A DNA stretch of 53,790 nt from an uncultured Colwellia sp. (GTDB taxonomy: Bacteria; Pseudomonadota; Gammaproteobacteria; Enterobacterales; Alteromonadaceae): assembly GCA_913049915.1 (NCBI GenBank), contig CAJWZC010000015.1:1-53790 (forward strand), written 5' to 3'. The position numbers were made by a program, and so were the translations under genes. The notes under the pieces are model-generated. The model had not been told where the DNA came from and made no database searches. It saw only the letters and a list, made by a program, of their open reading frames with translations. Within the stretch, counting starts at the first letter, position 1; every line of letters starts with the position of its first letter. Below are positions 37,865 to 44,380 of this stretch, piece by piece.

Positions 37865-38287
37865 TTACTTTTCTAATTCAGCAAAGCAAGCGCTCGCGAT
37901 AAACCCTGAGCGGGTTTTGTAATCTGAAGATTTATTTACCTTGTCATCAATTTGAGTAATAAGTAACTCGGGTAAAGTCACATTTATTTTATGGCTCTTG
38001 CCTAAGTAGGGCGTAATATCAATGCTTACTATTGCCCAGAAAGCTTGAGAAAAAGTATGTGGGTTTTCTAATATATAATTCTTTCGATGGTTATCGAGTC
38101 CCTTTGAATTAGGGACTTTTTCACCATATTCTGCCAAAATTGTAAGATGCGATTTAATGGCCTTAGTGATTTCTTCTATACCAAGATCTATTGTTTTCTC
38201 GCTAATTGCACAGCCAGGAAGATCAGGTACGTACACTTGATAGTCACTGGTTTTTTCGCTTTGAGTAAACACTACAGCGTATTTCAT
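37865..38287 (-). CDS. HicB-family antitoxin, apparently without HicA
   Basis: 140-residue HicB-like protein. The N-terminal HicB fold (YAVVFTQSEKTSDYQVYVPD, LPGCAISEKTIDLGIEEITK) is intact, and the C-terminal part (VTLPELLITQIDDKV...RSGFIASACFAELEK) has ribbon-helix-helix character for DNA binding. HicB normally neutralises the mRNA-cleaving toxin HicA and represses their operon. No hicA-sized frame is visible on either side, so this looks like a solitary antitoxin or regulator. AGGAG precedes the ATG. Four direct repeats lie immediately upstream and are likely operator sites. Convergent with bioD. Confidence 0.82.
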   Translation of the reverse strand: MKYAVVFTQSEKTSDYQVYVPDLPGCAISEKTIDLGIEEITKAIKSHLTILAEYGEKVPNSKGLDNHRKNYILENPHTFSQAFWAIVSIDITPYLGKSHKINVTLPELLITQIDDKVNKSSDYKTRSGFIASACFAELEK

Positions 38288-38323: not shown

Positions 38324-38439
38324 ATAGTAACCCCAATAACTCGAAATGACAATATAGTAACAACCCTGATAACTCCTTTTAATTTTATAGTACAACTCTG
38401 ATAACCCCAGCCACACTAAAATAACAACCCTGATAACTC
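38324..38439. repeat. Four direct repeats at about 32-bp period upstream of hicB
   Basis: Copies of ATAGTAACAACCCTGATAACTC lie at about 38324-38342, 38354-38375, 38387-38407 and 38418-38439. Copy 2 matches best; copy 1 lacks three internal bases, copy 3 lacks one, and copy 4 differs at the left end. The right ends are 33, 32 and 32 bp apart, three helical turns, so all sites face one side of the helix. They begin 37 bp upstream of the hicB start (minus strand). An operator array is the favoured role. Confidence 0.75.
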
Positions 38440-38765: not shown

Positions 38766-39905
38766 ATGAAAGAACTTCTTAACAGAAACCCGGAATTATT
38801 GATCTCCGTTGTAGGCATAGGAGGATGTGGTTGCAATACAGTTAACATGCTTCACGAAAATAATTTATCAGGGCAAGTTAACCTTGTTGCGATTAATACA
38901 GATCTTGCTGCGTTAAATAGCATTAATGTTGAAAAAAAAATCCTCATAGGTGAAAACTTAACAAATGGCTATGGTGCAGGTGCCGATCCTATTATTGGTT
39001 ATCAAGCAGCTCAAGAAAGCGAACAGTTACTTCGTAGTGCCATAATGGACAGTGACATTGTAATCATTACCGCGGGTTTTGGTGGTGGCACGGGAACAGG
39101 TGCAAGTCCTTTAGTCGCTAAAATAGCACGTGAACTCAATATCAACTGTTTAGCTATCGTAACCTTACCGTTTGAGTCAGAAGGGAAAATACGAATGGAT
39201 TATGCCCTGCAGGGTATAGATGATATTAAAGAACCTATACATGCTTATATTACCCTTTCCAACGACCTATTACTTGCAGGCTTGGGTGAAAGCGTTGGCT
39301 TATTCTCGGCCTTTAACCAAAGTAATGAGGTCCTTAAAAATCTCTTGATCGCTTTAGTGCAGATGCTTAATGAAACAGGTTATGTTAATGTCGATAAAAA
39401 TGATTTCTCAACTATTTTATCATTTGAAGGTGAGTCTATTTTAGGTGTTGGCAAAGCCGACTCTGAAGAAGGAGCGTTCGACGCTCTCGACCAAGCGCTA
39501 AATAATCCACTAGTTTCTATCGCTAACATAGATACAGCCAAAGGTATTATCTTTCAATTGTTCTGTAAATCAGAGCCTAAATTATCGACTTATAATGGTT
39601 TAATTGATCATATCCGCACCAAGGTAACTAATCGCTCTGTACTTATTGTTCCAGGTGTAAGTCTTGATCCTAATTTGTCTTCAGAAATAGAAATACTGAT
39701 AATAGGCTCGGGTATCGTTAGTGATGCAGCAAAGTCTATTAAACAATCCATTGTCATTAACGAAAAGTGCGAAACGGTTGAGCAATCGTTAGAGTTATCA
39801 GAACCGGTATATATTGATGACGAGCTTAGTTTTATCAATCAAGGTGAGAGTATGAGTGATATACCGGCAATAACGCGTAAATTAATGGCAATCAAACGCA
39901 ATTAG
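38766..39905 (+). CDS. Divergent FtsZ paralogue
   Basis: 379-residue tubulin/FtsZ GTPase, clearly not the cell's main FtsZ: it is remote from any division/cell-wall cluster and very divergent. The N-terminal nucleotide fold has VVGIGGCGCNTVNML and the tubulin signature GFGGGTGTGASP (104-115). The T7 synergy loop is NVDKND (208-213): both aspartates needed for hydrolysis remain, but the usual Phe is Lys. The end, SDIPAITRKLMAIKRN, resembles the FtsZ C-terminal peptide (DIPAFLRKQAD) that binds FtsA/ZipA, with changes. It should bind GTP and may polymerise, alone or with the main FtsZ. An EAL protein follows 100 bp downstream. Its role is unknown. Confidence 0.88.
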   Translation: MKELLNRNPELLISVVGIGGCGCNTVNMLHENNLSGQVNLVAINTDLAALNSINVEKKILIGENLTNGYGAGADPIIGYQAAQESEQLLRSAIMDSDIVIITAGFGGGTGTGASPLVAKIARELNINCLAIVTLPFESEGKIRMDYALQGIDDIKEPIHAYITLSNDLLLAGLGESVGLFSAFNQSNEVLKNLLIALVQMLNETGYVNVDKNDFSTILSFEGESILGVGKADSEEGAFDALDQALNNPLVSIANIDTAKGIIFQLFCKSEPKLSTYNGLIDHIRTKVTNRSVLIVPGVSLDPNLSSEIEILIIGSGIVSDAAKSIKQSIVINEKCETVEQSLELSEPVYIDDELSFINQGESMSDIPAITRKLMAIKRN

Positions 39906-40005
39906 CGAAACAAGACTTTACATGATAATCATTCTTGTTTACATTCATCATTCCATTAATCTATGTATTAGGAACGGTCGGCTAAAAAATTGTCGGCTGA
40001 AGTCA

Positions 40006-40740
40006 ATGAAAGATAAGAAATTACTCAGCCCTAAATGTTTAATCGATCTCATCGAAAATAAGCGCTTTGCTGTAGAATATCAGCCTATAATTAGTACTGA
40101 CAGCCAAGAGATTTTTGCCTATGAATCTTTGGCCAGATTCTATTCTAGCGATAATGAACTCATCCGACCAGACTTGGTTTATGAGTCACTGCACAATAGC
40201 CCATTAACCTTGTTTCAAGTTGAATATCAACAAAAGCAATTACAGTTATCTTATGCTATTAATGATTATGATATTTTTGTGAATTTAGACCAAGACTCTT
40301 ACTTTGCCAGTGGGGTTATTGATCAAAGTAATCCTTTCCTAAAGTTGTTCAAATCACATACAAAGTCGAATGTTGTGGTTGAGCTAATTGAAAACTCAGA
40401 AATAAATGATGCCATAATGAGTCTTGCCATGATTGATAATCTCGCTAAAAGTAATATTCAAACCGCGATAGACGATGTTTGTAATCCTCAATCAATGATT
40501 TCTACCTCTGTGATACAATTAGTTAATTATATCAAGCTTGATAAGTACGTAATAAAAAATAAAAACAATCGTAACTTTATGCTACTCGTGAAATCTATTA
40601 TCGATTATGCGCGCAGTACTGATAAAAAAGTGATCCTCGAAGGTGTAGAAACGTATGATGACCTAAACTTAGCAAAACAGCTTAGTTGTGATTTTGTACA
40701 AGGCTTCTATTATCGTGATCGTTTCAAGAACGTTAGTTAA
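40006..40740 (+). CDS. Stand-alone EAL domain protein
   Basis: 244 residues from the ATG at 40006; an in-frame ATG at 39922 would add a hydrophobic, unconserved stretch without a ribosome binding site, so the shorter form is preferred. It is a single EAL domain, the c-di-GMP phosphodiesterase fold, with no sensor domain. Catalytic positions are mostly kept: Glu in YESLARF, Asn in IFVNLD, Glu in VVELIE, Asp-Asp in AIDDVC, Lys in YIKLDKY, Glu in LEGVET and Gln in VQGFYYRD. The usual DDFG loop is changed to DDVC, so activity is uncertain. It follows the FtsZ paralogue on the same strand. Confidence 0.82.
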   Translation: MKDKKLLSPKCLIDLIENKRFAVEYQPIISTDSQEIFAYESLARFYSSDNELIRPDLVYESLHNSPLTLFQVEYQQKQLQLSYAINDYDIFVNLDQDSYFASGVIDQSNPFLKLFKSHTKSNVVVELIENSEINDAIMSLAMIDNLAKSNIQTAIDDVCNPQSMISTSVIQLVNYIKLDKYVIKNKNNRNFMLLVKSIIDYARSTDKKVILEGVETYDDLNLAKQLSCDFVQGFYYRDRFKNVS

Positions 40741-40820: not shown

Positions 40821-41381
40821 ATGAACGTTAACATGACACCTAAGATTAGCAGTAGCTTTAAAAAATCGATAAAAATTGTTTGTAGTTTGGTAAGCCTTGT
40901 TGGTTTCTCAGCTTTTGCAACAGATCTTAAAGTAGGAGATGTCGCACCTAACTTTAAATTACAAGCAACCACGGGTGATTATTATCAGCTGAGTGACTAC
41001 AAAGGTAAAAAAGCCGTGGTATTAGCTTGGTTTCCAATGGCTAATACACGTGGTTGTACTATTGAATGTAAGTCGTTGACCGAGCAGGGGCATCTAATTA
41101 GAGAATATGACGTTAGTTACGTTATGGCTAGTGTTGACCCACTTGACGACAACCGAGACTTTGTAGAAAAAACAGGTGCTGATTTCCCAATGTTAAGTGA
41201 CCCAACAAAATCAGCAGCAAAAGCGTATCAAGTACTCAATACGTTTAAAGTTGCCAGCCGTGTAACTTTCTACATATCAAAACAAGGAAAAATAGTTAAA
41301 ATTGATAATGATATTTCTCCAAAGTCTGCCGCTCAAGATATGGCAAATAATCTAGCTGCTTTAGGGATTACTAAGATATAA
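40821..41381 (+). CDS. Exported BCP/PrxQ-type peroxiredoxin
   Basis: 186-residue thiol peroxidase with a signal peptide (KKSIKIVCSLVSLVGFSAFA) that should place it in the periplasm. The redox fold starts at VGDVAPNFKLQATTGDYYQL. The active site is TRGCTIECKS: the peroxidatic cysteine is followed five positions later by the resolving cysteine, the arrangement of bacterioferritin comigratory protein. FPMANTRGC replaces the usual YPKDxTPGC. It reduces hydroperoxides using a thiol donor. It starts 80 bp after the EAL gene and seven bases before a Cys-rich gene, with which it is likely co-transcribed. Confidence 0.88.
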   Translation: MNVNMTPKISSSFKKSIKIVCSLVSLVGFSAFATDLKVGDVAPNFKLQATTGDYYQLSDYKGKKAVVLAWFPMANTRGCTIECKSLTEQGHLIREYDVSYVMASVDPLDDNRDFVEKTGADFPMLSDPTKSAAKAYQVLNTFKVASRVTFYISKQGKIVKIDNDISPKSAAQDMANNLAALGITKI

Positions 41382-43435: not shown

Positions 43436-44380
43436 ATGACAAGAAAAATATTAACATTGAACATGAAAAGAAAAATTGTACCCAAAGCCGTTGAAAAAGT
43501 GGTTAAGGATGTATTTCATCAAGACCCACAAAAGCGTTTTTTAAATGGTGTAGCCATTAATCCCGACCAGCTTATTCAGCTTGAGTTAGGCTCTAAACAA
43601 CTATCCATGCGAGCTATGGATTTGTTAACGCCAATAGGTATGGGGCAAAGAGGTTTGATTGTTGCTCCACCAGGCTCTGGTAAAACGACCATTTTAAAAC
43701 ATATTTGTCAGTCTGTAGGCGAAGCTTATCCCGAGATAAAACTTTATGCCTTACTCATTGATGAGCGTCCTGAAGAAGTGACAGATTTTAAGCGCAACGT
43801 GCCGGCACAGGTATTCGCCTCATCCACAGATGAAAATTATGATCATCACCTACGTGTTACTAATGACCTTCTTAAAATCGCACGTAAAGAAGCTGGCGAA
43901 GGTCACAATGTAATGATTGTCATTGACTCCCTGACAAGACTGACACGAGTACATAATGCCAATCAAAAAAGTAGTGGTCGTACCATGTCAGGCGGAATTG
44001 ACGCTAGAGCAATGGAAATACCGCGAAAACTATTTGGTACCGCTAGAAACATTGAAAATGGTGGCTCTATTACCATCCTAGCAACCATACTTGTTGATAC
44101 TGGAAGCCGAATGGATCAGGTGATATGTGAGGAATTCAAAGGCACAGGTAATATGGAAATCGTTTTATCACGTGATGCTGCTAATCTTCGAGTTTTCCCC
44201 GCGTTTGATATTGCTAAAAGTAGCACGCGCCGTGAAGAGCTTCTTCTCAATTCAAAGGATATCGACAAAGTACGGCTGATACGAAGAGGTCTTACCAGTC
44301 TAAAGCCTGTTGATGGCGCTAGGAAACTTGTCGAATTACTCGATAAATACCCAACCAATATTGAGCTATTAAATCAATAG
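43436..44380 (+). CDS. Rho paralogue lacking the N-terminal RNA-binding domain
   Basis: 314 residues against about 419 for Rho. The ATPase ring domain is nearly complete: PIGMGQRGLIVAPPGSGKTT (Walker A), LLIDERPEEVTDF, Walker B in MIVIDSLTRLTR, the secondary RNA-binding Q-loop region MSGGIDARAM, the R-loop region EEFKGTGNMEIVLSR and the arginine finger in SSTRREELLL. The cold-shock-like primary RNA-binding domain is absent; residues 1-50 are basic and new. Walker A reads PPGSGKT where Rho has PPKAGKT. It may form hexamers alone or with Rho and alter termination. ATG 43463 is an alternative start. Confidence 0.88.
   Translation: MTRKILTLNMKRKIVPKAVEKVVKDVFHQDPQKRFLNGVAINPDQLIQLELGSKQLSMRAMDLLTPIGMGQRGLIVAPPGSGKTTILKHICQSVGEAYPEIKLYALLIDERPEEVTDFKRNVPAQVFASSTDENYDHHLRVTNDLLKIARKEAGEGHNVMIVIDSLTRLTRVHNANQKSSGRTMSGGIDARAMEIPRKLFGTARNIENGGSITILATILVDTGSRMDQVICEEFKGTGNMEIVLSRDAANLRVFPAFDIAKSSTRREELLLNSKDIDKVRLIRRGLTSLKPVDGARKLVELLDKYPTNIELLNQ

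Follow-up and report, generated by a model that had tools for sequence, protein, structure and literature searches.

A second, divergent FtsZ in Colwellia and related genera, often encoded beside a WYL-type regulator outside Colwellia

The window analysed here, a stretch of 53,790 nucleotides from an uncultured Colwellia sp., holds a divergent ftsZ gene followed by a gene for a stand-alone EAL-domain protein. To our knowledge, Gammaproteobacteria are usually treated as one-FtsZ bacteria, and the locus raises the question of what this FtsZ is, which gene, if any, it works with, and where in the cell it may act. The genes and sites around it are given in Table 1, in which the FtsZ paralogue is called ftsZ2.

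Table 1. Features of the window around ftsZ2
Feature	Positions	Strand	Basis
ftsZ2, divergent FtsZ paralogue, 379 aa	38766..39905	+	ORF, Pfam, alignment, tree
Stand-alone EAL-domain protein, 244 aa	40006..40740	+	Pfam; start supported by orthologues
HicB-like protein (PF15919), divergent from ftsZ2	37865..38287	-	Pfam; genus comparison
Four AACYC-N4-AACYC sites, spacing about 33 bp, upstream of the HicB-like gene	38329..38439		Motif scan
Peroxiredoxin-like protein (AhpC-TSA)	40821..41381	+	Pfam; member of the neighbourhood with or without ftsZ2

The sequence-only reading of the locus described a 379-residue FtsZ with the signature GGGTGTGASP, the T7 sequence NVDKND and the C-terminal SDIPAITRKLMA, all of which agree with the open reading frame as quoted. 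The Pfam families Tubulin (PF00091) and FtsZ_C (PF12327) match the protein at 145.5 bits (cut-off 33) and 45.9 bits (cut-off 27), respectively, and its C-terminal peptide is DIPAITRK. The score against the equivalog model TIGR00065 is 268.2 bits, below the cut-off of 295.2; for three further FtsZ2 proteins it is 281.2 (L071, which fails), 363.9 (L101) and 312.1 (L099, both of which pass), so the clade straddles the cut-off. The genome (3.8 Mb in 178 contigs) contains two PF00091 matches, namely ftsZ2 and a 386-aa FtsZ on contig C29, encoded directly downstream of ftsA and 33% identical to FtsZ2. That the gene is a second FtsZ, as had been claimed, is therefore borne out: it is not the only ftsZ of the genome and, unlike the canonical one, it lies outside the ftsA-ftsZ cluster. 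The dN/dS of ftsZ2 is 0.04-0.09 in seven Colwellia pairs, and the gene is under purifying selection and looks enzymatically intact. Three copies (L012, L023 and L061) are broken, which makes ftsZ2 dispensable at least in those genomes.

The divergence of the protein is also evident from an 87-row tree, in which 45 FtsZ2 sequences are split with a support of 100/99 from 40 canonical, ftsA-linked FtsZ and two outgroups, and in which the window protein branches apart from the ftsA-linked FtsZ of related genomes. These rows remained after removal of the broken or fragmentary L023, L061 and L097 and then of 21 near-duplicate loci; L115, a partial frame interrupted by one stop, was kept. The depth of the split is unsure, because the f25 members are the FtsZ2 rows closest to the canonical side and the tree is rooted on two long-branch outgroups, for which the tool warns of long branches meeting.

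A closer inspection of the alignment, numbered as in E. coli, revealed that N207, D209 and D212, which we take to be the catalytic residues of T7, are kept in all 45 FtsZ2 rows, as are N43, D45, G105-G109, E138 and N165; position 142 is Arg in 43 rows and Lys in two. The T7 loop of the window protein is unlike the canonical one at positions 210, 211 and 213, so the alteration noticed earlier is real but does not amount to a catalytic loss. At position 21, presumably part of the nucleotide loop, all 45 FtsZ2 rows have Cys where all 40 canonical rows have Gly, and this is one of ten sites that differ between the two groups, each at least 85% uniform per group. In the C-terminal peptide, D373, I374, P375 and R379 are conserved in 37, 40, 44 and 43 of the 45 rows, respectively, while F377 and L378 are variable and both are changed in the window protein; the peptide is thus modified, as had been noted, around a D-I-P-x-x-R core that most rows keep. 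Taken together, FtsZ2 shares with canonical FtsZ (TIGR00065, PF00091 plus PF12327) the same two domains, the GTP and T7 residues and the DIPAxxR core, and is set apart by its separate clade, by Cys in place of Gly21 and by nine further group-specific sites.

Named relatives at 72-95% identity, from 23 loci, belong to Colwellia species and MAGs (including C. psychrerythraea, C. demingiae, C. piezophila, C. echini and C. maritima) and to one Litorilituus MAG. Within a genus sample of 39 genomes, FtsZ2, called at E < 1e-150, is present in 26, and the other 13 have canonical FtsZ only. Its occurrence is patchy across several families in a family draw of 295 genomes and an order draw of 394, the locus set from these draws leaving out G658. 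When class (369 genomes) and phylum (299 genomes) draws were searched with the FtsZ2 profile at 1e-113, all members recovered were of the same order; more diverged kin would escape this threshold. Three f18 matches were considered as FtsZ2 beyond the order and rejected; their scores are canonical-like, and the two checked (L144 and L145) adjoin ftsA. A phage origin was likewise rejected: tblastn of viral_contigs gave no FtsZ2 relative, and a phage collection gave only partial matches in 23 records, with less than 60% identity in the 15 of the 23 that were listed.

A further FtsZ is present in 23 of the 24 FtsZ2 carriers searched with PF00091, each time linked to ftsA. The one carrier without it, G422, is 88% complete and yielded no more than a fragment of FtsZ2. 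One genome, G021, has three FtsZ genes, namely a canonical one, a native Colwellia-type FtsZ2 with an internal stop codon and a WYL-linked FtsZ2 (L054 and L055), the latter being of a type known from other genera. An identical FtsZ2 was observed within the same gene island in two genera (L087 and L088, from G085 and G137), with no WYL gene nearby, which suggests recent transfer or shared contamination.

The neighbour that drew attention to the locus is a genuine EAL protein (Pfam EAL, 114.5 bits). A longer open reading frame starts at 39922; in 7 of 12 loci with an EAL neighbour, the Met that corresponds to 40006 is precisely where the open frame starts, so the longer form probably starts too early. 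The 244-aa protein of Table 1 is the likely product, separated from ftsZ2 by about 100 nt and not by about 17. The gene adjoins ftsZ2 in 12 of the 26 genus carriers, with one copy broken, and hence the adjacency does recur beyond the window. It is, however, equally common where FtsZ2 is absent: at E up to 1e-45, this EAL gene was found in 11 of 26 FtsZ2-bearing versus 6 of 13 FtsZ2-free genomes of the genus (Fisher p = 1). These six genomes show the order bio genes, HicB-like gene, EAL gene and peroxiredoxin gene, with a 65-aa ORF intervening in one; in four further FtsZ2-free genomes the HicB-like gene is followed by the peroxiredoxin gene and/or an 83-aa gene without this EAL gene, and in the remaining three by other genes. 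As the gene row is found without ftsZ2, the latter comes and goes at a site that is also present in its absence. The 1.5-kb flanks of loci outside native Colwellia contained no EAL match, nor was one seen within six genes of FtsZ2 in 30 wider loci parsed.

These comparisons bear directly on the proposal, made from the window sequence, that FtsZ2 and its EAL neighbour act as one unit, through which a GTPase filament would be linked to c-di-GMP. The shared strand, the short gap and the recurrent adjacency would fit such a unit, and so would the positions E, N, E, DD, K, E and Q of the EAL protein, presumably catalytic, which align with those of MucR. Against it stand the DFGTG loop of MucR, which is DVCNP in the window protein, the even co-occurrence, the occupation of the same site in genomes without FtsZ2 and the missing EAL match at the non-native loci parsed. 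We therefore reject the coupling, which we consider extremely improbable; from the gene comparisons, the EAL gene appears to be a chance neighbour of ftsZ2.

On the other side of ftsZ2, the HicB-like gene is found in every one of the 39 genus genomes, whether ftsZ2 is there or not. Exact AACYC-N4-AACYC sites number one to five at each of the 39 HicB-like loci scanned, FtsZ2 present or not, and the array looks like a putative operator of a stand-alone HicB/RHH-type regulator. An FtsZ2-specific regulator was considered and rejected here, as the gene is present throughout and all 13 FtsZ2-free genomes keep its upstream sites. Elsewhere in the window (43436-44380) we also noticed a 314-aa protein that we take to be a Rho-like ATPase lacking the N-terminal region of Rho (Pfam ATP-synt_ab, 79 bits); a 424-aa open frame on contig C4 of the genome is 45% identical to it.

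A recurrent neighbour of FtsZ2 was identified outside the native Colwellia copies. At 30 of 37 such genomic loci a WYL-type regulator gene lies beside FtsZ2, comprising 11 of 14 loci of the family draw, 18 of 22 of the order draw (including L097, where both genes are fragments) and L055, the second copy in G021. The pair is also present on both of two Pseudoalteromonas plasmids examined (five records matched). The WYL profile for the neighbour search drew on no sequences other than family-level members and L055, which makes the order-level matches independent of its training set. Of the 18 order loci, 17 have the regulator gene ahead of FtsZ2 on the same strand, as do two family loci and both plasmids; codirectional gaps are 32-81 bp at the 12 loci measured. 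In the remaining family loci the two genes are convergent, so that both gene orders exist. No WYL gene was found within 1.5 kb at seven of the 37 loci. One of the seven, G359, shows a weak match (88 bits) at a distance of two genes. In another (G202; L257, contig C21 8000-27000) the WYL gene is about 13.8 kb off on the same contig, still convergent, and an insertion seems to have split the pair. Native Colwellia carriers, mostly draft genomes, gave no strong WYL match, G008 and G018 having weak ones of 107-111 bits.

The two genes also occur together across genomes. Strong WYL matches (at least 350 bits) are present in 14 genomes of the family draw, the next score being 196 bits. Among 279 family-draw genomes, that is, leaving out 16 Colwellia-genus genomes (among the matches listed), both genes are found in 12, FtsZ2 only in two (G085 and G137) and the WYL gene only in one (G276), with a Fisher p of about 3e-18 that ignores shared ancestry and counts 22 weak FtsZ matches as canonical (six were checked and lie beside ftsA). 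There is some circularity in the test, as profile A2 took 7 of its 10 rows from genomes among its 14 strong matches; with strong matches outside the profile, 6 of 7 genomes have FtsZ2. In G276, the WYL gene is intact and the 991 bases to the contig end contain no FtsZ2 match. In G165 (L256, contig C1 1133000-1143000) a WYL gene of the type linked to FtsZ2 has decayed, scoring 196 bits and being interrupted by five stops, and no FtsZ2 match was seen in 10 kb; the gene is perhaps the remnant of a lost pair.

Other neighbours of FtsZ2 recur only between close relatives. A scan covered 99 of 103 neighbour proteins (without three longer than 1,100 aa and a fragment of FtsZ2) and did not include loci L055, L088, L091, L187 and L192; its commonest Pfam family was phage integrase with four members (among the first 25 of 121 families listed). 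A defence-island context, judged on the first 25 families of two listings (of 121 and 50 families), was inconsistent and was rejected. So was LexA control of ftsZ2, as no LexA-like site recurs upstream of it and just one-mismatch sites are present, in 3 of 26 upstream regions. A crude scan for exact 7-bp inverted repeats revealed no repeat shared by the WYL loci as a common operator.

In the regulators themselves, WCX reaches the Pfam cut-off in five of six scanned, with L107 right on the threshold and L090 slightly short of it, the WYL domain PF13280 is unrecognised by Pfam in all six, and the WYL models of PADLOC give 39-52 bits in three of three. Searched against the PDB, the regulator profile found five WYL-type sequences over positions 220-333 (E 8e-5 to 3e-4), including weak matches, confined to the WCX end, to 7tzv (E 9e-5) and 8tp8 (E 3e-4), both of which are DriD according to the accessible parts of PMC12340889 and PMC11804915. 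In Caulobacter crescentus, the damage response through which DriD activates didA, the gene of a division inhibitor, is independent of SOS (PMC4211646, PMC12340889, accessible parts). The resemblance to DriD-DidA is that of a WYL-type regulator tied to a division-acting gene, and DriD is one of the few relatives of the regulator profile with a solved structure. The two systems differ in that DidA acts through FtsN and is no FtsZ (accessible parts of the same two sources), and in that the WYL region of FtsZ2's regulators goes unrecognised by Pfam. The paired arginines that bind ssDNA in PafB have no clear counterpart in alignment A2 as judged by eye. A second precedent is provided by BrxR/CapW-type repressors, WYL regulators of which some control phage defence and which combine HTH, WYL and C-terminal domains, as the regulators described here probably do; in both cases the regulator adjoins a gene it may control (PMC9122601, accessible part); unlike there, a defence operon is not consistently beside FtsZ2.

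Because DriD, a WYL regulator, activates the division inhibitor gene didA, FtsZ2 may be conditionally expressed and act at the division ring. The explanation that we tentatively favour is that ftsZ2 encodes a GTPase-competent accessory FtsZ of this kind, orphaned from its regulator in Colwellia. Judging from its intact motifs, FtsZ2 would bind and hydrolyse GTP and polymerise, and its C-terminal peptide may reach the same membrane anchors as the main FtsZ. The WYL regulator would be the ancestral partner of ftsZ2 and would turn it on under stress, the WYL precedents pointing to DNA damage or phage-like nucleic-acid signals; once induced, FtsZ2 may enter or compete with the Z ring and thereby alter or pause division. 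In Colwellia, where ftsZ2 sits between the HicB-like and the EAL/peroxiredoxin genes with no WYL partner, control would be by other means. In favour of this explanation are the separate clade, the intact motifs, the purifying selection, the presence of a canonical ftsZ in the same genomes and the WYL gene as a neighbour. What speaks against it is the WYL domain that Pfam does not recognise in the regulators, the weak likeness to DriD, the loci and native Colwellia carriers with no strong WYL match nearby, the WYL genes seen with no FtsZ2 match, the negative scans for a LexA-like site and a shared inverted repeat, the changed F377 and L378, the broken copies and the two long-branch outgroups of the tree.

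Other readings weigh the same features differently. FtsZ2 might form a separate filament outside septation, under WYL control where the WYL gene is present, for which its long separate clade and its divergence from canonical FtsZ at T7 positions 210-211, at anchor positions 377-378 and at several other positions can be cited; the conserved D-I-P-x-x-R core argues instead for division-site anchors, and we regard this reading as unlikely. A more elaborate idea, that FtsZ2 is an anti-phage decoy or backup induced through the WYL regulator when phage proteins attack FtsZ, could draw on the phage-defence role of some WYL regulators (PMC9122601, accessible part), on the patchy distribution and on neighbours that include four integrases and single McrBC and N6-methylase genes. 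It is distinctly unlikely in view of the inconsistent defence neighbourhood, in which even the commonest family (among those listed) accounts for just four of 99 proteins. If FtsZ2 were merely a redundant spare without a special role, intact motifs and the occasional broken copy would be expected, as is the case; but the low identity to the FtsZ of the same genome, the invariant Cys21, the strong purifying selection and the recurrent regulator all point to specialisation, and a mere spare is improbable.

The accessory FtsZ at the division ring could also be framed more boldly. The WYL-FtsZ2 pair might constitute an SOS-independent two-gene division checkpoint, in which a nucleic-acid-sensing WYL protein induces FtsZ2, the Cys21 loop permits co-assembly and the ring stalls until the stress passes. 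This is speculative and, in our estimate, unlikely; if true, division would be controlled by a swap of the filament protein and not by a separate inhibitor.

FtsZ paralogues as such are already known, while the FtsZ2 clade and its regulator appear to be new. As with archaeal FtsZ1/FtsZ2 and the extra bacterial copies outside the dcw cluster, a second FtsZ is encoded here off the division cluster; no gammaproteobacterial WYL-linked clade is named in the accessible part of the source, in which the words Gammaproteobacteria and Shewanella are absent (PMC9871819). No WYL-linked FtsZ was noticed among the matches listed from the open-licence literature, and, of two papers on related ground, the accessible part of PMC2875224 does not mention one and that of PMC8496264 contains neither ftsZ nor WYL.

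In summary, the FtsZ-EAL case illustrates how an adjacency can seem meaningful until genomes without one of the genes are compared. The WYL-FtsZ2 pair is small and is found in culturable marine bacteria. A coherent second FtsZ clade in several families of one order, often accompanied by a stress-type regulator, would mean that some of these bacteria switch or mix their division filament.
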